Source: Yamagishiella unicocca
Taxonomy: Eukaryota > Chlorophyta > Chlorophyceae > Chlamydomonadales > Volvocaceae
Reading direction: 5' to 3'
DNA: 64,000 nucleotides
NCBI GenBank assembly: GCA_003116995.1
Contig: BDSL01000069.1
Coordinates: 62,001-126,000, forward strand
Shown here one piece after another: positions 1 to 40,165 of the stretch. Position numbers and translations under genes: made by a program. Below the pieces are notes generated by a model. The model was given only the letters and a program-made list of their open reading frames with translations, searched no databases and was not told where the DNA came from. Each line of letters begins with the position of its first letter. Position 1 is the first letter of the stretch.

Positions 1-121
1 GTTACTAACCCCGCGGTTTCACCCGAAGTCCCGAACCCGAACCCGAACCCTTCCAAATCCCTCCTTCCTTCCTGACGAACCCTTCCTCCTCCTCCTCCTC
101 CCCCTCCTCCGCTCCCCCCAG

Positions 122-3100
122 GCGAGGTCGTCGCCCTGGTGGGCCCCTCGGGCGGCGGCAAGTCCTCCATCGTGAAGCTGCTGGAGCGCTTCTACCTGCC
201 CACGGCCGGCAGGCGAGCAGCGACGGAGGGGGGCCCCCGGGGAACTGGAGGGCGGGGGTGTGTAAAACCCGTTTTACGGCAAAACCGTTTGGAGGGCGGG
301 GGGGGGGGGGAACAAGAGGGGGAGGGGGGAGCCAGAGGGGGAGGGGGGGTGCCGTCTAGCTTGCCAACATGCTGCCTGGTGGTCTGCCACCACCACCCTC
401 GCTGTGACCTCACGCCACGACACCGGACCTGTATCCTCTGCCGGGCCTCAAATCCCTGGCCCTGGCCCTGCCGACAGCGTACACGAGCACCCCGCGGCCC
501 CCCCCCTTCCCCTTCCCCCTCCCGGCCACCACGTCGAGTAACCGGTTCTCGTTTGTGCCCCCCCCCCCGCTGCGCGCCTCTCCCCCTCCCTGGACCCAGG
601 GTGCTGCTGGATGGCAACGAGCTAGGCGTGCTGGAGCCCAAGTGGCTCCGGCGGCAGGTGGCGCTGGTGAGCCAGGAGCCGGTGCTGTACGCTCGATCCA
701 TCCGCCGCAACATCCTGTTCGGGCTGGAGGCCGAAGACGGCTGCGCCAACCCGCCCACTGAGGAGGAGGTGGTGGAGGCGGCCAAGCAGGCGAGCAGCGG
801 CAGCGGCGGGGGGGTTACAATAATAGAACCGGTAACGCGACTGGGGAAATGTAGCGTGTGTGGGGGGGGAGGGATGAGAGGAAACCCGCGGGTCGAAACG
901 TACTGCAGAGACGAATAAACCTTTGGGGGGAAGGACTTTGGACACGTGTTTTAGTCGGTGCGTGTCGGAGAGCTTGGCCCGGAGGGCAGCGGGGGGGCAG
1001 GGGGAGGAGGTACGGAGGGTTGCAAGGAAAACCCCTGTACGAAAAGAAAACCGTTTAGGACAGACGTTTCGAGATGCATGCTGGAGGGCGGGTGTTTGGT
1101 GGCGGGGGGGCCGGGCGGTGGGACGGAAGAAGCCATGGCGCAGCGGCGCTGCCTCCTTCCCAACCCGCAAACACCCCCCCCCCCCGGCATTTCAGCGGCC
1201 TCGAGCACGTGGTCAAACACGATACCATCCAGCTAACAATGCCAGTCCTCTTTGGTCGATTCCACCCGGCCCTCCTTGGTCGCTTCACGCCCCTCTGTCC
1301 CACCCGGGCGCATCGCGCAGGCCAACGCGCACGACTTCATCACCTCCTTCCCCGAGGGCTACGAAACCAGCTGCGGCGAGAAGGGGGTGGCGCTGTCGGG
1401 CGGCCAGAAGCAGCGCATAGCCATCGCCCGGGCGCTGGTACGGCGGCCGAGGGTGCTGTTGCTTGATGAGGCTACCTCGGCGCTGGACGCGGACAGCGAG
1501 GTACGAACGTACGGCGCAGCGGGGGGCCCGGGGGGCGGGGGAGGGGGGGGGGCAGGTAGGGGGGTGCCATGTTGCCGCCTAACCAGCCGGCGGTCCAAAA
1601 CACGCAATGACACGCACAGCTCCGCCGGGTTATCACCCCGCCAAACCCTCGCAACCCTCCCACCCCCCAGCTTAGCCGCCAAAGGTCATATTACGACCTT
1701 CGGCTTTCGTATCCCCAACCCAGTTCTCCAGCATGCATCTCAAAACTTCTGTTTCAAACGGTTTTTTCGGACATCCACGGGTTTCCCTCGACCCCCCCCC
1801 CCACACCTCTTAACCCCACCCCACCCAACTCCCCACCGATCCACTCCCCCACGTCCTTCGGTTCACGGGTGTCCCCTTACCCCCCACTCTCCTTTCCGCC
1901 TTGTCCCCGCGTTTTCCTCGCACCCCCCCACACCCCCCCACCACCCCATACACGAAACACACGCAGGCGGTGGTCCAGGAGGCTCTGGACCGCGTCATGG
2001 CGGGCCGCACCGTGATCGTCATCGCGCACCGCCTGTCCACCATCCAGAACGCCAACCGCATCTACGTCATCGGAAACGGTGCCGTACAGGAGGTGGGTGG
2101 CCGTTGACGTGTCGGACGGCCGCGGCGGTCGGTATTTGGTATTTGGTAGTAAGGGGAGCGGGGGAAGACATACCGGTACCTGAGATGGCCCTCACGGCCG
2201 CAGCCGGCTTGGTTTCTGTCGGGGCACGACAACGCCTGCTTGGGACAAGACCCGGAGCCGTCGTTTACGCGCGCTCCGAAACACACATTGGACCGCCGCC
2301 CTGCCCGGCTGCTGACGTGGCCTCCGTGTCCTCCCCCCCGGCCTTCTCTCGACCAGACGGGCACCCACATGGACCTGCTGGCATCCGGCGGGGTGTACTC
2401 GCAACTGGTGCGGAGGCAGCTCACACGGCCCCTGTCGCAGGTAAGGGGGTGGCGGGGTCGCAGGGCTGGGGGGGTGGGGGGGGCAGGGTTGAGGGGGTGT
2501 CGGGGTCGCAGGGCTGGGGGGGTGTCGGGGTCGCAGGGCTGGGGGGGTGGCGGGGGCCCAGGATAGAGGGGCTCGTGTGGGGGCTGGGGGAGGGGACGCT
2601 GTCGCCCAGAGGGGGTCCCAACCGGGGGCGCAGGGGGCCATGCCGCCGATGGCGCTGCAGGCAGGCGGTGGCGGTGTGGGCGGGCAGTGGCGGGAAGGGC
2701 GGCGCCGGGTATGATAGCGCAGCGAACGGCAAGCACTGACGGCTGGGCTGGAATTGAAGGGAACGACCCGTGGGTCGGCTGCGCCTCGTGCAAACCAGCC
2801 CAGGGGATGAGGTGTTCCTGCGGCCGCTGCTGCCCGCCGCCGCGGCTGTGGCCGATGTTTTTGGGTTGCCCTGCCAGTGGTTTTGAGTACGGTATCACGT
2901 GCACACCCCAGCATGAGGCCTGCCAACGACACCTCCGCATAAACCATCGCCTCGTGTGCATGATTGCCGTCGAGCGTGTGCTGCCAGCTGGCTGGCTTGA
3001 CCCCTCCTCGTACGCGCGTGGTGCCGTGCTGTGCCGTACTGCCCGTTGCGGCAGGTGAGTCTGTCCGGAGGGGCTGGGGAGTCGCACACCCCGGGTATGA

Positions 3101-7400: not shown

Positions 7401-10400
7401 CGGAGAGGCAGTTACGTCCTGGCACCCGCCCGCCATCCCCCCCCCTACACGCCCTTGCCGCGCATGTCCCCCCCAAAGCTGTTTCCCCTGCAGGCGCCTC
7501 CGCCGCCCCCTTCCCCGCTGTGCACCTTGCAGCGGCCGCGGCAGGCGCGCCCGCCACCAGCCGCCGCCGCAACATCACGCCGCTGATGCCGCCGCCGCCG
7601 CCAGCCCGCGCCCGCGCCGCTGCAGCTGCTGCCGCCGCCGCTGCCCCGACCGCCCGGCTCGCCGCGCCGCCCGATCCCGCCATGGCCCCCGTGGCAGCGG
7701 CCGCGGCGGCTGCGGCGACAGCGGCTGCCGCCGCCAACTGCGCCCGGCAGCCCGCCGCCGCCCCAAAACCACGCCAGTCCGCGCCTCCGCCACCGCCACC
7801 TCCTCCGCCACCCCAACATCCGACCCCGCCGCCGCTCCCCACGTCCCCCGCTCCTCCCGACCCCGCCGCCGCCCCCCGCGGGCCCCGCCCTGCCTTGTGC
7901 CAGTCCAGGCGCCGGTCTCCGCGCACCGCCGCTAGCCAGGGCTTGCCCGCCGCCAGCACCGCGACGCTCTTGGCCACACGGCACGTCGGAACGCCCACAG
8001 CGGCGGCGGCGTCGGCGGCGGTGGCGGTGGCGGGGGGGCCTGGTGGCGGCGCGGAGCGAGGCCAAGGCGAAGGCGGAAGAGCCGAGGCAGGCTGTTGCCG
8101 GTGCTCCTGCGCCTGCAGCAGCGGCTCCGGCTGCGGTCCCGCTGGAGCGGCGGCGCCTGGGGAGGGCACGGCGGAGATCAGGGGTGTGACGTGGCTGACG
8201 AGGGAGGAGCGCGCCCGTGCCAGCACACGTTGGACGCAGTGTACCCTTACCCCCAGGCCAGAGAGAGCGACCGCCGCTGTGCTTTTTCCTAAAGTTACAG
8301 TGTACCAAAGTTACACGCCCATCTGGCTTCTTACCTTGGCACCCCCCGGCCTGCTGCTCCCCCACGATGCCGTACTCCGGCAGGAGCCACCGTACGGCAT
8401 TGCTGAGCCCGTGCCGCTCCAGGGCGGCCGCCACGCTCGGCGGCAGCGCCATCCCGCTGTCGCCGCCGCCCGCGGGTGCTGCCGCCGCCCCCGGCCCCGT
8501 CACTGCCGGTACCGGCGGCTGTACGGCTGCCGGTACGGGCGAGGCGCCGTACGTCTTGCTGAGCGCCTTGTATGGTGTACTCGCAGGTCCACTGCTCCTG
8601 TCGCGTGCGGCGATGGCCGTGCTGCCGCCTGCTGATCCTGCTGCTACTGCCGCCGCCGCCGCTACTGCTACTGCCGAGGTCAGCCGAAGGCTGGCTACTG
8701 CTGCTGCCAATGCCGCCGCCGTACCGCCGCATCGTCCGTCACTGCCGTCGATGCCGCCTCCGTCACCGTCACCGCCACTCCGCGGTCTCGGCCCGCCCGC
8801 CCCGATGCCGCTGCCGCCCCCCTGCCCGCCGCCGCTGCCGCCGCCACCCCCCCCGCCGTCACGCGGCTCCTCTTCGCTTCGCGGCTGGCTCCCCGCCGCC
8901 GCCGCCGCCGCCTGCTGTGCTGGCGTCGTTGTCGCTGCCTGTTCCAGCGCCTACGAGGGACAGCTGGCACGAGGGGCATGCGAGGCTGATTGATCATCTC
9001 GTCACTGCCCTGAGCAGAGAAGGCCGTCATGGCCGGTGCAGCTTGACGGCCGGACCGCCCCACACGACTCCGCCCCACACGACTCCGCCCCACACGACTC
9101 CGCCCCACACGACTCCGCCCCACACGACTCCGCCCCTACAACCCAGTCCCGCCCTCTCCCTCCCAACCCAGTTCCCCCCTCCCAACCCAGTCCCGCCCTC
9201 TCCCTCCCAACCCAGTCCCGCCCTCTCCCAACCCAGTCCCGCCCTCTCCCTCCCAACCCAGTCCCGCCCTCTCCCTCCCAACCCAGTCCCGCCCTCTCCC
9301 AACCCAGTCCCGCCCTCTCCCTCCCAACCCAGTCCCGCCCTCTCCCTCCCAACCCAGTCCCGCCCTCTCCCTCCCAACCCAGTTCCCCCCTCCCAACCCA
9401 GTCCCGCCCTCTCCCTCCCAACCCAGTCCCGCCCTCTCCCTCCCAACCCAGTCCCGCCCTCTCCCAACCCAGTCCCGCCCTCTCCCTCCCAACCCAGTCC
9501 CGCCCTCTCCCTCCCAACCCAGTTCCCCCCTCCCAACCCAGTCCCGCCCTCTCCCTCCCAACCCAGTCCCGCCCTCTCCCAACCCAGTCCCGCCCTCTCC
9601 CTCCCAACCCAGTCCCGCCCTCTCCCTCCCAACCCAGTCCCGCCCTCTCCCAACCCAGTCCCGCCCTCTCCCAACCCAGTCCCGCCCTCTCCCTCCCAAC
9701 CCAGTCCTGCCCTCTCCCAACCCTGTCCCCCCCCTCTCCCAACCCAGTCCCGCCGCACCGGCCGCCGCCGCTGCTGCTGCGCCGGCGCCGCCGCGAAGGG
9801 CGCCGTACGGTCCTTGACCACCGCCTCCGCCACCCCCGGCGGCAGGCGCTCGTGGAATGTGTCCCACAGCCGCACCAGCACGTGCGCGTCCTGGGCGGCG
9901 TACACCAGCTGGCGGGGGCTGAGGGGCCGGGCCTCCCAGTCAGATACCTGCGCACGGCCACGACACCCGTGTGCGTCGTCATCAACAAAAAATAAAAAAA
10001 ATAAAAAACCAAAAAGGAAAGGAGATGAACTGAAATACGCACACACCCACAGCGCGCGTTTTGATCAGAGGGATAACAAGATAAGAGGCCCAGCGCATGT
10101 GCCCGATGAGGGGTTTTCTTTACAAAAAAAGACCGGTTCCCCGGGGGGGGGGAGGTAGGGGCTGGAACGGGGTGCTGTCAGGTGTTCGAACATGGCACCT
10201 GGCGGCAACATGGTCCATGGGGAAATCGGGGCCTGGCTGTTGTCTGCCGGAGCTATGCGGGCCGCACCTGCATGGTCTTGTCGAGGGGCTTGCCCAGCAA
10301 CGCGGCAGCGAGGGTGGACAGACCCGCCTGGAAGGCGCGGCCGGGCAGCGAGACGGGTCGGGAGTTCTGCAAGCAGAGGAGGTGGGGCGGGGCGAGGGTG

Positions 10401-13400
10401 GGTTGGGTGGGTATGAGACGAACCCCCCCTCGGTCTTCCTCGAAACCCCCCGGGGGGAAGTGGCGTAATAATCCGGTGACACGGCATGGGGGAGGGGAGG
10501 GGAGGGGTGGGTCGCAAAGCTGCGAGTGTAGATTCCGTTGCTCACAAGGACAAGGCGGGTGTACCCCGGGCCGCAAACCGCCCTCTCGCCCCAGCCCAAA
10601 CCCCGCGTCACCTCACCTTTGGCCTCGCCGCCTGCGCCTGCGCCGTGACGTACGCCTTCCACATGTCGTACAGGTCCAGGGTGGCCGCCACCCGACGGAA
10701 GGCGGCCACGTGGGGGTAGGAGGTGGCCAGCTTGGACAGGTCGCCTGGGGGCGGGCGAGGGTGGGGCGTTGGGTTGGTTGGGTCGGTTGAGGCGGTTGAC
10801 TGGCAGCGGAAAACAACCCTACTGACCATACCTTCCCCCCAGCAATGTGACTTCAGACCCATACGTCATGGATACGCCCGTGGCGTGTCAAACCCTGGAG
10901 GCCCCCCTCCCCCCCCCGGCCACCCACTCACCTCCTAGCGCAAAGCCCAGCACCAGCGCGCCACCCGGGCCGAATACCGGCAGCAGCACTGAGTCTATGT
11001 CCAGCTGCTCCTGCTGCTGCTGCTCTTCCGCTGCCGCCGCCTGGCCGCCCTGCTGCCCGGCCGCTGCCGCCCCCGTGGATCCTGGCTCCGAAACCCCGGG
11101 CTGGGCCGCTGCGCCCTCCGCCCCCGCGGCCCCCCCTCCGCCTCCTCTCCCCCCACCGCCGCACAGCGCCATCAGGTCGAACAGCATGACGGCGTCGCGA
11201 GTGGCCACCTGAAGCAAGCTGGCAGGGGAAGCCGAACCGCCGCGACCGACCCTCCGCCTGCCGCCGCCGGTTCGCCGCTCCGCCTCCCCCACTCCATCTC
11301 CCTCTTGCGCCGCCTCCGCCTCCGCCCCCTCCTCCTCCTCCCCTCCCTCCTCCCCCTCCTCCTCCTCCGCCTCGGCATCCACCCCCTGCGCCTTCCACTC
11401 CACGTCGATACCCACAACCGTGGCGCCCGCCAGCGCCGCCGCCGCGGCGCGCAGACCCACGGGTCCGTCCACGAACAGCACCTCCCCCGGCGGCAGCGCC
11501 AGCGCCAGGTACCTGTCCGCGCGCTCCGCCTCCTGCGCCGCCAGCTGCTGCGGGTCCAGGTTCAGAGCCTCGGCGGGCAGGCCGAAGCGCTTGCGATACT
11601 CCTCCGCCAGCCCCGCCTCGCCGGCCGCCACCATCTGGTTTCGGAGGAGGAGTTGGGGGGAGGTGCCGCTGGTTTCGGAGGAGGGGTTTGGGGAGGTGCC
11701 GCTGGTTTCGGAGGAGGAGTTGGGGGGAGGTGCCGCTGGTTTCGGAGGAGGGGTTTGGGGGGAAGGCCGTTGGGCGGCGGCGGCGGGGGATGGTTGACGA
11801 CGGCAGAGCGAGTAGCGGGAAGAGGAGAAGGAAGGAGGCGCAGCATATCATTACCCTGACCACGTTTTTTTCCACTTTGCCGAGTCAGGGGTTTACTCCC
11901 GCTCTCCGGCACTCGCCGCCTGACCCCTACCACTACTTTTGGAGGGCGGGCGGTGGCCGCCCATCAGGGCACGCAAGGACGGGTGGAGCCCCGCAACCCG
12001 AGGGTAGGTGGTTAGGTGGTTATGTGGTTATGTGGTTAGTTGCACCTGCAGCAGCAGCTCCATCTGCATGGCGGTATCGCCGCCCACGAAGGTGGAGGCC
12101 ACACCCCACACCCGCTTGGACGCCAGCTTGGACAGCGCGGCTCGCCGGTAGCGGGCCTCGATGTCGGGGAACTCCTGGTTGCGTTGGGGGGTGGGGCCGC
12201 GTGTGATGTGGTCCCGGCGCAAGGACCCGTACGGCAGCCGCCTCGGTACGTTCGGCCGCCCACCCCCTCTCCCCCCGTAAGTCACAACAGAAGTCGACCG
12301 GGCAGCACCCCCACCCCCTGCTGCCTGTCTCCTCCCCCCCTGCTGGCTCCCACCCTCATCGCCCATGAACATGCCCCCTTCATCGCCCACAACACGCCCC
12401 CTTCCACAGCCCCGCTCTGCAGCACCCCGCCTCCCAGCCCCCACCGCTCCACGCCCCCCACCCCCACCGCTCCACGCCCCCCACCTCCAGCGGTACACAG
12501 CGGCACACGCACCTGCCGCAGTCCAAACACGCGGGTGGCCCTGGCCGCTGCTTTGAGGCGGTCCGCGGCTATGCACGCCTCCACATACACCACCTGGGGG
12601 AGCGGGGAGGGCACACCGGGGCAGGCAGCGGAGACCGGAGCCGGGGGGGAGGGGATGGCGGTGGCGGTTACCAGACCAATGGGCGGTCACGTCTTCACCC
12701 TCACCCTCACACTCGGTTGGCTCTCACGGCCCCCCACCCCCACCGTGAGCCTAAGGCGGGAGGACCCCCGCCACCGCCCCCGCCACTGCACCCCCGCCCC
12801 CGCCACTGCACCCCCGCCCCCGCCACTGCACCCCCGCCCCCGCCACTGCACCCCCGCCCCCGCCACTGCACCCCCGCCCCCGCCACTGCACCCCCGCCCC
12901 CGCCACTGCACCCCCGCCCCCGCCACTGCACCCCCGCCCCCGCCACTGCACCCCCGCCCCCGCCACTGCACCCCCGCCCCCGCCACTGCACCCCCGCCCC
13001 CGCCACTGCACCCCCGCCCCCGCCACTGCACCCCCGCCCCCGCCACTGCACTGCACCCCACCCAAGACCACCCCAGCCTCCGCCACCGCGCCCCTGCCCA
13101 GCCCCCGCCACCCCACCGCGCCCCTGCCCAGCCCCCGCCACCCCACCGCGCCCCTGCCCAGCCCCCGCCCCCCGCCCCCCGCGCCGCCACCCCCTCCCGC
13201 ACCTGGTCTGCCCGGCTGAGGCCGGCCACCCACTTCTCCGCCGCCGCCTCCTTGCCCTCGTCCACGAGGCGGGACAGCAGCGCACGTCGGTCAACCAGGT
13301 CAGCCAGCAGAGCCTGAGGGCCCCGGGGGGGGTCGAGGAAGACCCGTGGATGCGAGAAAAACCGTTTAGGACAGACGTTTTGAGGTGCATGCTGGAGAGC

Positions 13401-27144: not shown

Positions 27145-30100
27145 ATGGGCGTCACGCTGCGGGGCCTCCGCAAGATACGTGCCTCCCTGGAGCAGCTGTT
27201 CGGGGACGCCCTGCGCGACATGAGCACCGCCGAGGTCAACCAGCGTTGGGTGGAGGAGGTGACGGCGGCGCGGCGCTGCCGTCTCTTGGAGCTAGAGCAC
27301 ATCGCGGCGCCCGCCGACGTCGCCCCCCCCATGTACTTCGTCAGCCACGCCTGGAAGAACCGCGCCCTGCTGCTGCTGGACTTCGTGCTGGACGGCTTCC
27401 TGGCCGCGGCGGGCGACTCGGTTTCCGTATGGCTGGACATCCTGGCGGTGAACCAGCACGAGGACACGCAGGCGCACTCGTACGACATCGCGGCCTTCGA
27501 ACACGTCATCCGGGCGTGTACGGCGGGCACCATCGTGGTCATGGATGTCGCCAACTGCAACCCCTCCAGCCGCGGCTGGTGTATGTTCGAGTGGGCTCAC
27601 ACGCTGGCGGCACACGGCCCCGACGGGCTGCACATGCGGCTGGAGCCGGAGGACCGCGCCGCCGTGTTCAGCTCGCTGGATATCCGCCGGGCGGAGTGCC
27701 AGTTCCCGCGCGACAAGGAGATGATCCTGGCCGCAGTGCACGAGCAGCACGGCAGCGCGGACACCTTCAACGCCAAGCTCAAGCTGCAGTTGCTGCTGGA
27801 GCCGCTGTCGTACAGCGTGGACCTGCGGCGGCTCATCCAGCGCGCGCAGGGCACCGCCTGGGCCTTCGGGGCGGTCCGGGAGTGGCTGGGGGCGGGCCCG
27901 GCGGCGGGCAGCCGGGTGCTGTGCGTGTCGGCCGGCGCGGGCGAGGGCAAGTCCACGATCTCCGCGGTGCTGTGCGAGGGGGCGGAGCGGGGTGATCTGG
28001 GCGAGGGCGTCACCGCGTACCACTTCCTCAAGTACAACGACCAGCGGCGTCTGGACCCGCTCCGCGTGATCAAGAGCCTCGCCTTCCAGCTGGCCAGCAG
28101 GTGCTGCGGCCCCCGAGGGAGCGTGTGCGCTTGCATCTGCCGCTAAGCCACGTGTGGTGGCGCCCTTGCTTGGCGGCCCTGCGCGGGTTACCGGGATGCT
28201 ACCATATAGATGGGAAGCGGCGCTCTACTTTCGACACGACAGTCCTGCGGCATTGGACTGCGCGTTCCTCCATGAGTTGATACATCACTCGCGGGGTTGA
28301 CGCGCGCAAATAGTTTACGCTGTGATAGCATGTTGCGCCGACTGCCAGCATCCGCGTGCCAGGTCCCGGCCTGCGCATGTGCCGTCCTCGCCGCCTGCTA
28401 CCCACCCAACCCCACCATGCGAAAGCGGCGCCGCCGGGCTACTCTGTCGGCATCCTTACCTGTCCTGCAAGCCCCCCCCCCCGCACACACGGGTTCTGGC
28501 ATCCACGGGTTCTGGCATCCACTGGTCTTCGTCGACCCCCCGCACACACACACACCCCTCGCGCTAAGTCTCCTTCGCGGCTCAGCTCAGCATATTTAAA
28601 ACACACACACACGGCGCCCTGTGCCCCGCCCCCCGCAGGCTGCCTGCGGTGTGCCAGGCCCTGCTCTCACTGGACGTGGCCGAGGTGGCCCAGATGAAGG
28701 ACGCGGACGAGGCGTTCACCAAGCTGCTGCTGGAGCCGCTGGAGGCCCTGCAGGACACGGCGCAGCCGCAGGGCCACGACACGCAGCAGCAGCTTCAGCA
28801 GGTGGTGTTGCTGATTGACGCGCTGGATGAGGCCGACCCCCTGGCGCAGCAGCTGGCCAGCCGCAGTAGCAAGTCCGCCTGCCCCAGCGCCTGCGGCAAC
28901 CGCATCCTGCAGCTCATCACAACATGCCTGGCCCGCCTGCCGCCCTTCGTGCGCTTCATCTTCACCACGCGGCCCGACGCAGCCGCGGGCCAGGTGCTGC
29001 CCGGCCTGGAGCGCGCCTTCGCTGCCAGCGTCACGCGGTGCTACCCCTCGGACCTGCGCGCCTGCGTCGGCGGCGCCGCGGGCGGCGGTGGTGGTGGCGG
29101 GGTGATGGTCTACCACACCGCCGCCGCGGCCGTCAACGACGACCCCGCCGCCGCCGCCGCCGGCCCTCAGGCCGCCCCGGTAGCGGCCGCGCTCCAGGAG
29201 CCCCAGCTCGAGGACGTGTATCGGCTGTACGGCAAGGTCTTTGAGTCGGCGCAGAAGCGCCTCCTCACCGACGGCGGCGTGGGAGGGGCGCGCGTGGTGG
29301 CCGACCTGCTGGCGGTGCTCATGGCCGCCCGGGAGCCGCTGTCGCAGTCCTTCCTGCAGCAGCTGGGCGGCCTGGGGGACGGCATCCCGCTGCTGCCCGG
29401 CTACCCCACGCTGTTCTTCCTGGACGAGCACCACCTCTACACGGTGCACAAGTCGCTGGGCGACTGGCTGCAGGAGCCCCTCCGCAGCGGCGCCTTCGCG
29501 GTGGACGTGTCCCGCGGCCACGAACGCATCGGCCTGCACCTGGCGGCCAACTGGCGCCAGACCAGCGGCAGCATGCCGTACACGCTCAAGTACGTCGTGC
29601 CGCACCTGGCGGCGGCGGCCGGCACGGGCAGCAGGCCCTCGGCGGCGGCGGCGGCGGCTCTGGACGCGCTGCTGTCCGACTTCGGGTTCATCCGGGCGGT
29701 CCTCCAGGCCGGCGCGGCGCCGGGCGTCATCGGGGCCCTGGGGGACATGTCGACGCACACGGGCTGCAGCTATGACGCGCTGAGGTGGCTGCGGTCGGAG
29801 CAGTACAACCTGGCGGGGAAGGCCGAGGGGGAGCTGGCGCGGGACGCAGCGCTGTGGAGCACGCCGGTCAACACCAAGCTGTACGACACGGCGGTCCGCG
29901 CGTCGGGGCTGGCCTGGCGGACGCGGCTGATGCTGCCGGCCAGCGCTGGCGACTGGCCGGCCGTGCAGGCGGTGCTCAAGGTGAGGTGGCGGCGCACGGG
30001 GCGTGTGGCGGACTCGTGGCGGCGGCTGTGGGGCGCGGTGGGCTGGCTGGCGGACCATGCGGCGTACAGCCCAGGGGACGCAGCGGCATTAGCAAGGCTG

Positions 30101-32437
30101 GGCTGAGCATTGTGCGCGGGCTTTGCGCCGTGCGCAACACGGGCGCGCACGCTCGATGGCAATGCCGCGCAACCTCCTCGTTAATACCGAATAGGGCCGC
30201 TTGGTATTTCGGTCCAATTCTGGGGTGCCTATGTTGATACCGTCCAGCCGCAGCACTTGACCAGTAAGTAGGTTCGTTCTGTCTGGAGCTCTTCGGTGGC
30301 GATACAACCACTTGACTCGCTGACGACTCGACCCGGCCCCTGCACACGGCGGCGTCGCACATGTCGCAGCAGGCGCCCGCGCCCACTTCGACCTGGCTGA
30401 TCCCCCTCCACGTATGCCTTGCGCACCTTCCGCCCAAACGTATGCATTGCGCACCTTCCGCCCAAACGTATGCCTTGCGCACCTTCCGCCCTAACGTATG
30501 CCTTGCGCACCTTCCGCTCTCCTCTCTCCTCTCAGGGTCACACGCAGAAGGTCTGCTGCGTGGCCTTCAGCCCCGACGGCCGGCAGGTGGTCAGCAGCAG
30601 CAGTGACCAGGCGCTCCGCACCTGGGACACGGCCACGGGGCGCTGCACAGCCACGTTACGGGGCCACACGGCCGACGCGTACAGCGTGGCCTTCAGCCCG
30701 GACGGCCGGCAGATCGTCAGCGGTGGCGGCGACTGCGTCGTGCGCGTCTGGGACGTGGCCACCGGCCAGTCCACCGCTGCCCTGCAGGGCCACACCGACA
30801 GGGTCCGAAGCGTCGCCTTCAGCCCGGACGGCAGCCTGGTGCTCAGCTGCAGCTGGGACAGGACGGTTCGCGTGTGGGACGCGGCCACGGGGCTGTGTAT
30901 CGCCACGCTGGAGGGCCACACGGAGCGGGTCCGGGGCGCGGCGTTCAGCCCGGACGGCAGGCGGGTGGTCAGCGGCAGCGACGACAACACGGTGCGTATC
31001 TGGGACTCGGCGACGTGGGAGCCCATTGCGACGCTGGCGGGCCACGAGGGTACGGTTCGCGGCGTGGCTTTCAGCCCGGACGGCCGGCGGGTCGCCAGCG
31101 GCAGCGATGACTGCACCGTGCGCGTGTGGGACGTGGGCACGGGCCAGTGCGCTGCGGCCCTGCACGGCCACAAGAGCCGCGTCACCGGTGTGGCGTTCAG
31201 CCCCGACGGCAGCCTCGTCGCGAGCAGCAGCGACGACCGGGCGGTGCGCATCTGGGACGCGGCCAGCGGCCAGTGCACAGCCACGCTGCGCGGCCACGGC
31301 AGCACCGTCTGCACAGTCGCCTTCAGCCCCGACGGCGGGCTGCTCTCCAGCGGCGGCGAGGACCAGGTCATTCGCATCTGGGACGTCGCCGCCGCGCAGT
31401 GCGCCGCCACGCTGCACGGCGACAAGAACTGGGTGTACAGCGTGGCGTTCAGCCCGGACGGCCGGCAGGTCGTCAGCGGCAGCGACGACTGCGAGGTGCA
31501 CGTCTGGGACAGCGCCCGGGGGCAGTGCGTCTCCAGCCTGCAGGGCCACACGGGCGACATCTACGGCACGTGCTACAGCGCCGACGGCAAGAGAGTCGCC
31601 AGCGTCAGCGCCGACGCGACGGCGCGCGTGTGGGACGTGGCCCGAGAGCGGTGCATCGCCACGATGGAGGGGCACACGGACCGCGTGAACGGGGTGGCGT
31701 TCAGCCCGGACGGCAGGCGGGTGGTCACCGGCGGGGGCGACCGGACGGTGCGCATATGGGACGCGGCCAGCGGGCAGTGCACTGCCACGCTGGGCGGGCA
31801 CACACTCACGGTGTACAGCGTGGCGTTCAGCCCTGATGGGACGCAGGTGGTGAGCGGCGGCAGTGACATGACGGTCCGCGTGTGGGACGCGGCATCCGCG
31901 CAGTGCGTGGCGGCGCTGGAGGGGCACACCAGCCGAGTCAGCAGCGTGGTGTTCAGTCGTGACGGCAGGCTGATGGCGAGCGGGAGCGACGACCGGACGG
32001 CCCGTATCTGGGACAGGGCCGCTGGGAAGTGCGCCGCCACGCTGCAGGGCCACACGCACTGGGTGTTCAGCGTGGCGTTCAGCCCGGACGGCAGGCAGCT
32101 GGTCAGCGGCAGCAGCGACCAGACGGTGCGATTATGGGACCTGACCAGCGGGCGGTGCATCGCGTTGCTGGAGGGCCACACGCACTGGGTGAACGCGGTG
32201 GCGTTCAGCCCGGACGGCAGGCATGTTGCGAGCGGCAGCACGGACCAGACGGTGCGCATATGGGCCCCAGCGGTGGGGCAGGCGGCGACGCCGGCTCCGC
32301 GGGAGCAGCGGACCGGCGCTAACAACGATGTCGGCAACGCACACGCTGTGGTCCCCATGAATGCGAGGCACGCGGTGAAAGGCGGCGGCGACAGGCGGCA
32401 ACACCTCTCGGCTGTTTTGCAGAAAGAGCAACACTGA
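27145..32437 (+). CDS. NLR-like STAND protein: FVSHAW (TIR-like?) - NACHT - 14 WD40 repeats
   Basis: Exons 27145-28100, 28639-29980, 30536-32437; 1399 aa. Residues about 63-160 hold an N-terminal domain with MYFVSHAW, VSVWLDILAVNQ and RGWCMFEW. This wording recurs in algal and protist proteins and looks like a TIR/SEFIR-type fold (inference). The NACHT/STAND ATPase follows: Walker A GAGEGKST (264-271), Walker B LLIDALDEAD (376-385) and sensor FIFTTRPD. Residues 767-1350 are 14 WD40 repeats of exactly 42 aa, each with the GHxxxVxxVAFSPDG and VRxWD signatures, enough for two seven-bladed propellers; all sit in exon 3. The combination is that of NOD-like and fungal HET-E-type proteins, in which the propeller senses and the N-terminal domain signals. 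ATG 27145 is the first in-frame Met. Intron 2 carries a 28-nt repeat just before the WD40 exon. The ligand is unknown. Confidence 0.9.
30411..30522 (+). repeat. 28-nt tandem repeat, 4 copies
   Basis: Units of CGTATGCCTTGCGCACCTTC plus eight more bases lie in the NLR intron. The array ends 13 nt before the acceptor of the WD40 exon, so it forms the pyrimidine-rich tract region. Confidence 0.95.
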
Positions 32438-34990: not shown

Positions 34991-35835
34991 ATGGTCTGCT
35001 GTAACGGCTCCGGCGGCCCCAACGGCTCCGGCGGCCCCAGCGGCTCCGGCGGCCTCCACGGCTCCGGCGGCCCCCCCGTCTCCGGCGGCTCCAACGGCTC
35101 TGGTGGCCCCAGCGGCTCCGGCGCCCGCACCGGCTCAGGCGGCCCCACCGGCTCCGGCGGCCCCACCGGATCCGGCGGCCCCACCGGCTCCGGCGGCCCC
35201 ACCGGCTCCGGCGGCCCCCCCGGCTCCGGCGGCCCCGCCGGCTCCGGCGGCCCCACCGGCTCCGGCGGCCCCACTGGCTCCGGCGGCCCCCCCGGCTCCG
35301 GCGGCCCCACTGGCTCCGGCGGCCCCACTGGCTCCGGCGGCCCCAACGGCTCTGGTGGCCCCAGCGGCTCCGGCGGCCCTGCCGCCCCTACCACCACCGG
35401 GCCGATGGTGGCCCCGTGCGCGGAGGGTGCACAACTGCACCTGCAGCTGACCGAGCCCCCGGCGCCGCTTGCACCCCCTGCCCTCCCCGCCTCCCCTGGT
35501 GCTGGCGCGGCCTCTGTGGCGGGGACCCCGGCTCCCCGGGCTCCTGCGGGCCTCTCCCCCGCCCCTCCCGCCGCCCCCCCCCTGCGGCGGCTGACACCCG
35601 TGGCCACCCCCTGGACCCGCCTGTCGATGTGGAGGCCTTGCCACGACGCCAGCGCCCTCGCCTCGCCTACCTGCCCGGCGCCCTCCTCGACGATGAGGTG
35701 GACATGGGCGCTGTCCTCGACGCCCCCAGCCTGGCGACCGCTCCGCCACCGCCGCCCCCGCCCCCCGCGCCCCCCCCGCCCGCCTGGGTCGATGTCGTCC
35801 GCTACGACGGCGTCCTGGGAGGCTTCATGCACTAA
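34991..35835 (+). CDS. Retrotransposon ORF1, Gly-Ser-Pro repeat protein (frame break)
   Basis: Starts at ATG 34991 ([10 protein letters not shown]). The first 130 or so residues are about 25 five-residue GSGGP-type repeats encoded by 15-nt units. A P/A-rich part follows to the C9 run at 35574-35582. There the frame must change by one missing base to reach the downstream open frame, which has a plausible acidic C-terminus ([13 protein letters not shown]) and ends at TAA 35833-35835. ORF1 of such elements normally binds RNA; here no zinc knuckle or RRM is visible. If the frame is not corrected, translation runs on to 36691 through ORF2 in the wrong frame. Confidence 0.6.
35005..35385 (+). repeat. 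15-nt coding tandem repeat in ORF1
   Basis: Units such as GGCTCCGGCGGCCCC encode GSGGP. All three forward frames stay open through the array (GSGGP, APAAPP and RLRRPH types); the frame is set by the ATG at 34991. Confidence 0.95.
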
Positions 35836-38800
35836 TGGTGCGCCAGCACCACGGCGCCCGGCCCGGCTCTCGCCCCCTCCGGATCGGGTCGCACAACATC
35901 CGGGGTTTTCTCGGCTCGGCCCCCAGTGGCCACTCGCCACGGCTCGCGGCCCTCCTCCGCTGCTGGGCCCGACAGTCGCTGGACGTCATCTGCCTGCAGG
36001 AGACCCACGTCACAGCGGCGGCGGTCCCCATTGCACGTGCTGGCCTCCACGACGTCTCCCGGGCGCTGCACCTGGGTCAGTGGGTCTCCTGGTGGAATCC
36101 CGCACCGTCTGCATGCCGGGGGGGCGTCGCCATCCTCGTCCGCCTCTCCCTGGTGGCCTCTGGAGCCCTTTCCTTCCCCGGCCCCGCACCCGCCCTCACC
36201 GGGTCCCCCGACGGCCGCCTCCTCCACCTCCCAGTCCTGTGGGGCGGCCACGCCTTCACCCTCCTCACCGCCTACCTGCCCTCCAGCCTCGCGGCAGCCC
36301 AACGCGCCTTCATCCACCAGTCCCTCCGCCCCGTCGCCGCCCTCCCCGGCCACCACATCTGGGCGGCCGACTTCAACTTCGTGGTCGACCCCGCCCTGGA
36401 CTGCCTTGCGGCCGCAGGACGTCCGGCCGATGTCCTCACCTCCTCCGCTTTCACTGCTGCCTGCCCCGGCCTGGTGGATGTTTTTCGCCGCGCCCACCCC
36501 TCTCGCCGCTCCTACACCTATTTCCATCCCTCCGGCGCCTCCCGCATCGACCGCCTCCTGGCCTCCCCGCAGCTGGCGGCCTCCGTCCGTGCCGCCTTCG
36601 TCGCCCCTGGGCCCCCCTCGGACCACCGCCTGGTCGTCACCCACCTCCTCCCTGCCCTTGGCTCCCAGCCCCCCGGCCCCGGCCTACGTAAGACCCGGCT
36701 CCACTTCCTCGACCATGCCGACCTGCAGCAGCAGCTTGGCACCTGGCTGGCCGCAGCGGTGGCGGCGGCCCCCACCGCCCCCGCCCACCTCCTCGACTGG
36801 TGGCCGGGCTTCAAACGGGCCCTCCGGGTCTCTGCAGCCCGCCTCAACCTCACCGCCCGCGCCAGGCGGACATGTGCGGTTGGGGTTGAAGCGGCCGCCG
36901 GGGCGGCTGCTGAGGCCGCCCTGGCCGCGGTTGAGGCGGGACAGCCGGCGGCCCTCCCCGCCGCAGTCGTGGCCCGCTCCGCCGAAGCGGCCGCCGCCCA
37001 ACGTGCCACCGCTGGTGTCGCCCGCCGGACCCGCCACACGTGGCTTCGCACCGGTGAACGGCCCTCCCCCACCATCACCCGCCACCTCCGCCCGCCCGCG
37101 GCCTGTCGCACCATCCCCGCCCTCCAGCGCCCGGACGGCTCCGTCAGCGCCGACCCACAGGAGCTCCCCTCCATCGTTGCGGCCTTCTGGCAGCGCATCT
37201 GCGCGGCCCCTGCGGGCGACCCGCGGGCCCGCCAACGGGTCCTGCAGGCCCTCCGTGCGCTGGGACGCCGCTGCCCACCCGCCGCAGTGGACGCCCTGGG
37301 CGCCCCCGTCGTTACCCCGGCGGAGGTGCTGGCTGCGATCCACACCGCCCCCCCCGGCCGGTCCCCGGGTGCAGACAGCCTCCCCACCGAGATCTACCAA
37401 CACTACGCCCCGACCCTTGCCCCCGTCCTCGCCGCCGTCTTCACTGCCTTTGCCGCCACCGACCGTGCACCCGCCGGCTTCCTGGACGGGGTCATCACCT
37501 CCTTCTTCAAGGACCAGGACCCCACCCTCCCCGCCAACTACCGCCCCATCACCCTCTTGGACACCGACTACCGGACCCTGGCCCGGGTCCTGGCCCGCCG
37601 CCTTCTCCCCGTCCTCGGGGATACGATCGACCCAGTGCAGACGGCCTTCCTGCAGCACCGGCGCATCTCGGACTCCGTCCTGCTCCTCCAACTCCTCCCC
37701 GCCCTCCTCCGCGCGGAGTCTCGCTCCTGTACGGTGGTGTTCCTGGACTTCCAGAAGGCCTATGACACGGTGGACCGCGCCTTCCTCCTGGAATGCCTGG
37801 ATGCCTTGGGTGTGGGCCCTGGCTGCCTTGCCTGGGTGCGACGCCTGCTGCAGGGCACCCGCTCTGCCGCCCTCGTCAACGGCCACCTGTCAGGTTGGGT
37901 GCCCATCACTGCCGGCGTTCGACAGGGGTGCCCGGCTGCGCCCCTCCTCTACCTCGCTCCCAGTCAGGCCCTCCTCTCCTGGCTGCAGCACGAAGCCATC
38001 GGCATCTCCCTCGCCGATCTCCGCCTCACCGCCTCCCAGTACGCGGATGACTGCACCCCCCTCCTCCGGGATGCTGCGGATGTCCCCCGCTTCCTGGCGG
38101 CCATGGACACCTTCCACGCCGCGTCGGGCCAGCAGCTCAACCTCCGCAAAGTGAAGCTCCTGCCCCTGCCCGGTGGCCCCCGAGCCATCCCTGCCGCCGC
38201 CCCGCCCCCCGCCTGCCCCACGGCCGCCAGTGCCCCTCCCCTCCCCCCCACCCCGGTGGCCACTGCCGCCCCCCTGGCCGCCCCCGACGCCGGCCTGGCG
38301 CCCCGCCTCGCTGTCGTCCCCTCCGCCTCCACCCTCGGCATCACCTTCACCGCGGGCGCCCCTGGACCGTACCCTGTGGACCTCGACCGGGTCTACAGCC
38401 GTCTGCAGCGTGCTGCCACCCTGCCCCTCTCTGCCTTCGGCCGCGCCTTCGCCGCCTCGGGCTATGCCCTCAGCCGTGTCCTCTACCACATGGAGTTCGT
38501 CGGCCTCCCCCCCCTGGCCTGCGGGCGGCCCTTCAGGCCACCACCGCCGCCTTCGTCGACCGCCGCTGCACCCCCGCCGCGCATCAGGCCCGCACCAACC
38601 GTGTACCTGCCGGAGCCGGCCTGCTCTACCTCGCCCTGCCCCCCTCCGCGGGCGGCTTCGGCCTCCTCCCTCTCGAAGCCCACGTACGGGCTCGCCACGC
38701 CGTCCTGGCCGTGCGAGGCCTGGCCGGCGCGTGTGGCCTCCTGCCGTCTGCCCCCCAGTGGCCCCAGCTCCTCCTCGCCCTCCTGCGCCACGGCCACCCC

Positions 38801-40165
38801 GCGGCCCACCCCCTGTGCCTCCTGCCCCTCCACGGCGACGCCCGCACCACCGCCGCCCCGCTGGTGCTCGGCCGGCCCCTCCCACGGGGCTCCCCGGCCC
38901 TCGCCCAGCTGATTACGGCGCTCGCCCATCTCCCGCCCATCACCATCCTGGACCCCACACTGGCCGCCCCGGGACCCTGGTGCTTCTCGGCGCCCCTCTG
39001 GGGCAACCCCCTCCTGGTCGATGCCACCGGCCGGGGCCTGGAGGCCGACTTCCCCGACCTCGCCCAGCTGCGTGGGCTTGATACGGTGGGTGTCGCCGTC
39101 CAGTGCTACAATGCCCTGGGCCGGGTCCGGACGGCCCTCGCTGTCGCCGCTGCCGGGGGGCCCCCCGCCATACGCTGTACCGAGTACCTGCGGCTCGACG
39201 TCCTCCGCGACGTCCTCCGCCTCTCCCCCGCCCACCCCGTCCCGGCCTCCATGCGGGATGGGGCCACGGGCCTAGCCCGCGTCGACGCCCTCGTTGGCCG
39301 CCTTCCCGCCACCTGGGCCATCGCGGCCCTCCTCGTTCTGGCGGCCCCGGGGGGTGCGGCTGCCGCCCCCCCCGCTGCGGACGCCTGGGGCCGCATGGCC
39401 CGCTGTGTCGGCTGGCGGGTGGGCCCCGCGGCCATTCCCCTTGTCTCCCTCACCGTCAAGTCGGCTACCATCCTGCAGCTCGGCCCAGCCTTCGCTGCTC
39501 TGGCGGCTAAGCATACGGCCTTCCTTCAGGAGGCCTGGGAGGCTCCCCTTCCCCCGGCAGCCCTGGCCTCCACCCTCCGGGAATTTCAGGCCACTCTGGT
39601 GCGCCTCTGGCGTCTTCGCTGGGACAACACGCACAAGGAGCCCCTCTGGCGGCTCGCCATGAACGGGTTCCATGGCTTCCCCATGCACGCGGCCCTCCTG
39701 GCGCGGGGGTCGCCCACGACCCCCTGCCCGTGCGGAGCGCCCATGGCCACGGGCCGCCGGCGCCACCACTTCTGGGAGTGTGTGGTGGCCTTGTCATTGC
39801 GTGACGAGCTTGTGGAGGCGATGGGGGGCGCGGTTGTCCTGCTCCCGCAGCATTTGTGGCTGGGTCGGCCCCCGTTGGGGGTGCACCCGCTTGTTTGGGA
39901 TGTGGTGTGCTTGGCGGCCGTCGCGGCGTTGGGTTTGGGGCTCCGCCTCCTGTTTCGGGTGCAGGCTGGGGCCCCCGGGGGGCGCATGCCGGTGGTGCGG
40001 GTGTGCGCCGCGGTGACGGCCGACTTCTGGGCCCGCCTCAGTGCGTTTGCCGAGCTGGGGCTGGCCCCCCGCGGGTGGGGGGCCATCCCGTCCGATCACC
40101 CCTTCCTCGCCGCCTCGCCCGCGGGGGAGGTGGTCTTCCCGGGCCGCCCGGGTGCCGAGGAGTGA
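35835..40165 (+). CDS. Retrotransposon ORF2: endonuclease-reverse transcriptase (frame break at 38507-38514)
   Basis: ATG 35835 overlaps the ORF1 stop (TAATG), suggesting reinitiation. The N-terminal part is an exonuclease-endonuclease-phosphatase domain ([38 protein letters not shown]). The RT region includes [37 protein letters not shown] and the catalytic YADD near residue 735. The frame then breaks in a C8 run (38507-38514). One extra base would join it to the downstream frame ending TGA 40163, for about 1443 aa. The C-terminal part has a CPCG-x-HH-x-C arrangement typical of plant/algal L1 elements. All key catalytic residues seen are intact, so the copy is recent or active apart from the break. 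Confidence 0.9.

Follow-up and report, generated by a model that had tools for sequence, protein, structure and literature searches.

The closest described counterparts of the gene presented here are the fungal HNWD proteins (het-d, het-e and het-r of Podospora anserina), which likewise combine an effector-like N-terminal domain, a NACHT domain and a WD40 array of the same unit length, and whose repeats, in the available text of two studies, vary in number and show over 80-100% identity to each other inside a single gene (PMC12222747; PMC1805685). Algal proteins of related build are also on record. The accessible part of a 2016 report describes four NACHT proteins in Chlamydomonas reinhardtii and the NACHT-WD40 combination, for which a role in apoptosis regulation was suggested (PMC4773052), and the red alga Chondrus crispus has NB-WD40 proteins, a TIR domain being present in 23 of 58 according to the available portion of the source (PMC7145615). 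As far as the accessible text of each source goes, a survey of 305 highly repetitive WD40 proteins listed none from animals or plants, most being bacterial or fungal (PMC5587647), and high internal conservation was put at 0.4% in Viridiplantae (PMC4986451). We found no report of near-identical-repeat WD40 arrays in green algae in the open full-text (PMC) literature, a scope outside which most subscription papers fall. Here, we describe a gene of the green alga Yamagishiella unicocca, carried by the plus strand of a 64,000-nucleotide stretch of contig BDSL01000069.1 (positions 62,001 to 126,000 of assembly GCA_003116995.1; hereafter, the window), together with its paralogues in the same genome. 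We propose, with a probability of about 0.6, that it encodes an NLR-like STAND receptor and that its family consists of NLR-like switches, some of which diversify in the manner of the fungal HNWD proteins. The broad kind of gene is known; its interest comes mainly through its family.

The window gene starts at 27145, ends with a stop codon at 32435-32437 and consists of three exons separated by GT..AG introns of 538 and 555 bp, which together encode an open 1,399-amino acid protein. Exon 1 (27145-28100), terminated by a GT donor, covers amino acids 1-318 plus two bases of codon 319 and encodes the N-terminal domain and an intact Walker A motif (GAGEGKST, amino acids 264-271; 27934-27957). Its splicing to exon 2 (28639-29980) across intron 1 (28101-28638) keeps the frame, and homologues (P0001) align over the junction. 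Exon 2 provides the remainder of the NACHT domain, including an intact Walker B motif (LLIDALDE, amino acids 376-383; 28808-28831), followed by a helical region that precedes the propellers and gives a weak, below cut-off match to HTH_TANC1. The NACHT region scored above the Pfam cut-offs for both NPHP3_N (63.3 versus 24.8 bits) and NACHT (31.2 versus 26.7 bits). Beyond intron 2 (29981-30535), exon 3 (30536-32437, stop codon included) encodes the WD40 array and a C-terminal tail. Fourteen stretches of the protein score above the Pfam WD40 model, and the array (30536-32299) comprises 14 repeats of 42 amino acids (126 nucleotides), all within exon 3 and with a 126-nucleotide spacing in 13 of 13 steps. 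A 28-bp tandem repeat (3.9 copies, 30410-30517) lies in intron 2 directly 5' of the WD40 exon.

The initial annotation, made from the letters of the window, had recognized an NLR-like architecture in a green alga, with intact Walker motifs and 14 equal repeats in one exon. Its reading of the layout, the motifs and the repeat number agrees with the above, and the algal origin with the finding that the best named relatives of the protein are all from volvocine algae. The single-exon description fits the array but not the gene as a whole, and the equality of the repeats holds for their length but not for their sequence, their mean pairwise identity being 68% at the nucleotide (0.683) and 55% at the amino acid level. 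As read from the sequence, the gene is real and intact, with an NLR-like layout in which a putative effector domain, an NTPase and a repeat sensor are joined in one protein. It shares with the C. reinhardtii NACHT-WD40 proteins a NACHT domain with C-terminal WD40 repeats in a volvocine alga; unlike here, the available text of that account describes no N-terminal domain, repeat identity or variable sites (PMC4773052). The present genome has 24 loci and a probably diversifying clade. It differs from the Chondrus TIR-NB-WD40 proteins in algal phylum, in its NACHT/NPHP3_N NTPase and in an N-terminal domain that is not a Pfam TIR domain, and from HNWD proteins in that this domain is not the Pfam HET domain and in its lack of near-identical repeats (55% versus over 80% amino acid identity).

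The presumed effector, a TIR/HET-like core spanning amino acids 60-222 (27322-27810), carries the motifs YFVSHAW (amino acids 64-70) and RGWCMFE (amino acids 143-149; 27571-27591). That it is not a textbook TIR, as first suspected, is in keeping with our searches: no Pfam, NCBIfam or PADLOC model named a family for it, no housekeeping domain was found in the N-terminal region, and TIR sequence profiles matched neither the window protein nor any of 11 N-terminal domains at E values up to 10 with filters on. Its predicted structure nonetheless appears to resemble TIR domains. A single-sequence search of the PDB returned one unrelated match (E 0.53), and a profile search a Paracoccus TIR protein at a non-significant E of 0.84. 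No HET domain (PF06985) exceeded the curated cut-off in the window protein; HET matches below it occurred in 4 of 11 relatives (best, 19.1 of 22.5 bits), and the resemblance of the domain to the HET profile is weak. No HET structure is listed by VIA-align, which does not count against HET. Glu149 of the RGWCMFE motif, retained in 51 of the 51 family sequences that have a residue at this place, may be, judging from the motif rather than from a superposition, the counterpart of the catalytic glutamate of TIR NADases. TIR and HET have been proposed to be two related effector families (PMC4986451, in its accessible text) and, if our assignment is correct, the domain may bridge them.

The AlphaFold2 model of exon 3, built from 9 aligned sequences, reached a mean per-residue confidence (pLDDT) of 87.4 and a predicted template modelling score (pTM) of 0.54. 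It presents the array as 14 propeller blades, with four strands in each of the first 13 units and three in the final one, followed by a disordered tail beyond residue 579. Its best PDB match was 2ymu_A, a 577-residue propeller of highly repetitive sequence (E 1.6e-61; template modelling scores 0.76/0.83), and Apaf-1 was also among the fold matches. We take the WD40 domain to form two seven-bladed propellers, whose mutual arrangement is left loose by the low pTM.

The paralogue count that the initial annotation had called for revealed a sizeable family. With the N-terminal domain as query, a search of the assembly that contains the window (1,415 contigs, 133.4 Mb) yielded 36 matches grouped into 25 loci, 24 of which also carry NACHT and WD40 matches in the fetched DNA, locus L031 having the N-terminal domain only; a search with the NACHT domain recovered these 24 loci and one weak additional place on C2. 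Two loci (L025, L027) have one TAG each within the N-terminal domain match. Of 610 candidates in a genome search with the repeat, 150 were scored; protein searches scored 8,000, 7,991 and 1,409 candidates. In a FastTree phylogeny of 20 of the 25 loci and 36 of 50 relative proteins, members lacking one match of sufficient length having been dropped, the window gene groups with the Edaphochlamys debaryana proteins P0026 and P0027 and the paralogue L010 (support 0.86) and, more widely, with proteins of C. schloesseri and C. incerta (support 0.53). Two loci on G000:C42 (L018 and L019), in opposite orientation about 18 kb apart and nearly identical in the compared region, represent an inverted duplication. 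At L030 (G000:C168), the WD40 block is apparently duplicated, with equal match scores at 67307 and 70867 and a recurring spacing pattern among the matches listed.

Eight paralogues (L011-L016, L021 and L022) form a single clade in the same tree (support 1.0), inside which none of the 36 published proteins falls, and it is these that carry near-identical repeats. By profile, they have 24, 16, 30, 15, 33, 16, 22 and 28 repeats, respectively, and by a stricter scan 19, 14, 28, 13, 29, 16, 22 and 27, with mean nucleotide identities in that scan of 0.858, 0.881, 0.882, 0.873, 0.865, 0.926, 0.926 and 0.946; mean amino acid identities range from 0.773 to 0.896, exceeding 0.80 in five of the eight. 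Repeat number, compared here between paralogues of one genome, differs even between close duplicates: 15 versus 33 in L014 and L015 (N-terminal domain pieces 0.99 and NACHT pieces 0.96 identical) and 22 versus 28 in L021 and L022 (0.99 for both domains), although the L014 count may be too low because its last listed unit runs into a stop following a frame change. Four of the eight genes reside on G000:C63, at about 17, 29, 140 and 168 kb. The combination of high internal identity with diversity at interaction hotspots is that of the highly repetitive WD40 proteins (PMC5587647, as far as its available text goes; PDB 2ymu), and the eight paralogues share variable repeat positions with HNWD proteins by our own mapping. 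They differ from the latter in having 15-33 repeats instead of the usual 10-12, and in that position 4 is strongly, and position 7 less, variable. The likeness implies no process akin to repeat-induced point mutation here. Since a metagenome protein with a related N-terminal domain (P0074) has similar repeats (0.79 amino acid identity over 10 units), such arrays may exist outside this genome.

Pooled over 168 repeats, the proportion of nonsynonymous differences (pN) peaked at positions 4, 5, 23 and 25 of the repeat (0.555, 0.599, 0.638 and 0.523), followed by positions 3 (0.285) and 7 (0.252) and then 14 (0.169) and 16 (0.156). In the model, positions 1-5 form the loop between strands d and a, and positions 23-25 that between strands b and c; the fungal selected site pairs sit in the same two loops, at the top of the propeller, in the accessible text of PMC1805685. 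The loops at positions 12-16 and 32-36 are conserved in most of the eight arrays. We mapped fungal codons 7, 9, 25 and 27 onto positions 5, 7, 23 and 25, because the conserved fungal codons 8 and 26 fit V6 and D24 here, and the seven sites used in PMC12222747, as given in its available text, onto positions 3, 4, 5, 7, 23, 25 and 32. By this mapping of our own, three of the four most variable positions are among the four HET-D/E sites under diversifying selection. These predefined fungal sets held more entropy than random column sets in nine of nine arrays, the eight and that of the window gene (P at most 0.00185 for four sites and 0.0002 for seven), and six of the seven most variable positions of the window gene are among the fungal seven. 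The entropy ratio was 3.7-13.3 in the eight arrays, 2.4 in the window gene and 1.14-2.79 in 36 relatives; because the window value falls within the range of ordinary relatives, the focused variation is, by this measure, distinctive only in the eight paralogues.

Pairwise pN/pS (pS, synonymous differences) at the four top positions exceeded 1 in all eight arrays (1.36-7.67) and was 1.23 in the window gene, compared to 0.38-1.28 at other positions. The four sites had first been picked from the same eight arrays; pairwise pN/pS alone was therefore rejected as proof of selection, and the published fungal sites were used as well. Codon 5 varies strongly at its first two bases and hardly at its third, a pattern that would speak against a blanket mutation hotspot; the third base does vary in the other three codons. 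In L022, the repeats are 98.2% identical outside six variable codons and 60% identical at the four sites, which display 23 distinct combinations among 27 repeats. An adenine-directed mutation pattern was rejected as a clear signature, as codons at these sites vary widely. Diversifying selection at the four sites appears likely but not proven.

The suggestion that unequal crossover or concerted evolution could reshape the array found support in the family and not in the window gene. Over the 36 less variable codons, window repeats are 0.725 identical to each other at the nucleotide level versus 0.719-0.732 to the repeats of the eight paralogues, so that concerted evolution of this array was rejected; they look like an old, diverged set free of recent homogenization. 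A strict one-to-one repeat order with relatives, which would have marked the repeats as ancient and strictly orthologous, was likewise rejected, no collinearity being found in seven of seven proteins by a test of little power, as many of the window repeats share a best match. The eight paralogues, in contrast, have 86-95% identical repeats in variable number. Among them, and with 4 of 182 core repeats dropped, L016, L021 and L022 have repeats that are 0.963-0.982 identical within the group versus 0.921-0.943 to the other five genes, in which within- and between-gene identities are equal (0.919-0.942). Because third-position identity between the two groups is alike in the NACHT domain (0.81-0.86) and the repeats (0.82-0.88), we see no exchange between them; strict concerted evolution is therefore apparent only as a shared homogenization of the three-gene group.

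On the reading that we prefer, the WD40 domain, with its 14 predicted blades resembling a solved 14-repeat double propeller, would bind a protein ligand and free the NACHT ATPase for nucleotide exchange and oligomerization, which would in turn gather the TIR/HET-like domains to signal or to kill the cell, perhaps through the consumption of nicotinamide adenine dinucleotide. Ligand binding, oligomerization, the output and any involvement in defence or self/non-self recognition are inferred. Within this family, the window gene represents the slow side, with old, diverged repeats and relatives in Chlamydomonas and Edaphochlamys, and the eight-gene clade the fast side, its arrays varying in repeat number and, in sequence, chiefly at the predicted contact sites, like those of HNWD proteins. 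More tentatively, and at slightly less than even odds, this volvocine alga may maintain an actively diversifying NLR-like repertoire, with WD40 units of nearly identical sequence being acquired, lost and rearranged and with selection favouring differences at a small number of contact residues in each blade. Such a system, coupled to a TIR/HET-like effector undescribed as a family, would have arisen independently of HNWD proteins or in parallel to them. If so, the fungal repeat-shuffling route to receptor diversity would also operate in the green lineage, among transformable and crossable relatives of Chlamydomonas and Volvox. Little is known of receptors for innate immunity or self/non-self recognition in algae, and the family would provide a candidate that can be tested.

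Several observations weigh against this interpretation. Strict counts of distinct codons gave no significant nonsynonymous excess at the four sites, where synonymous variety is also raised; the same loop positions vary in ordinary WD40 relatives; and the N-terminal domain and NACHT pieces of the duplicates, free of stops in all eight, also have a high pN/pS (0.55-1.19). The focused variation of the eight paralogues could thus reflect a local mutational process or the tolerance of WD40 loops rather than selection for new binding, an explanation that we consider unlikely but worth keeping in view, given that the eight arrays show a much stronger contrast than relatives do, that pN/pS at the four sites exceeds 1 in every one of them, that the third base of codon 5 is spared, and that the loops at 12-16 and 32-36 are conserved in most of these arrays. 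It is very improbable that the near-identical arrays are assembly artefacts: repeat arrays are often misassembled, and off-frame units occur at array ends in several loci, including the L014 unit that reaches a stop, but arrays of up to 1,431 amino acids remain open among the matches listed, and repeats within an array differ from one another, as at the four sites of L022, unlike in collapsed or inflated arrays.

Other explanations concern function. The window gene could be a conserved ciliary or general signalling scaffold, with NACHT regulating assembly and the double propeller holding fixed partners, and no immune or recognition role. Its lack of recent homogenization, its ordinary site ratio, its relatives in C. 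schloesseri, C. incerta and E. debaryana, and the name "flagellar associated protein" borne by P0034 of C. reinhardtii, a relative with 63% identity across the query part, are compatible with such a role, which we nevertheless find improbable: that label is a source name alone, the architecture has expanded to 24 loci with a fast-changing clade, and TIR/HET-like and NACHT domains are not known as typical ciliary parts. Slightly less probable in our estimation is an NLR-like protein responding to internal cues in stress, development or programmed cell death rather than to foreign or non-self ligands. Internal ligands are sensed by STAND proteins whose sensor is a WD40 domain, for instance Apaf-1, itself among the matches of our model, and apoptosis regulation is what the accessible text on C. 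reinhardtii suggests (PMC4773052); the variable repeat number and hypervariable contact positions of the eight paralogues, however, are more readily explained by a changing ligand than by a fixed one.

True HET domains, scoring above the Pfam cut-off, are encoded elsewhere in the genome at three places, in L034 (G000:C136, 1434-2855) and L035 (G000:C45); their volvocine relatives include C. reinhardtii NSG7, and some have ankyrin repeats. In the window itself, a LINE-like retrotransposon with Exo_endo_phos and RVT_1 domains (35835-38912, plus strand) lies about 3.4 kb downstream of the gene, and an 18-bp tandem repeat (35005-35379, 20.8 copies) encodes a Gly-Ser-Gly-Gly-Pro-like stretch. Long tandem repeats rich in C, their periods ranging from 20 to 71 bp, occupy 9139-9754 and 12774-13203, and two open frames at 76-2736 (plus strand) each contain one half of an ABC transporter ATPase domain.

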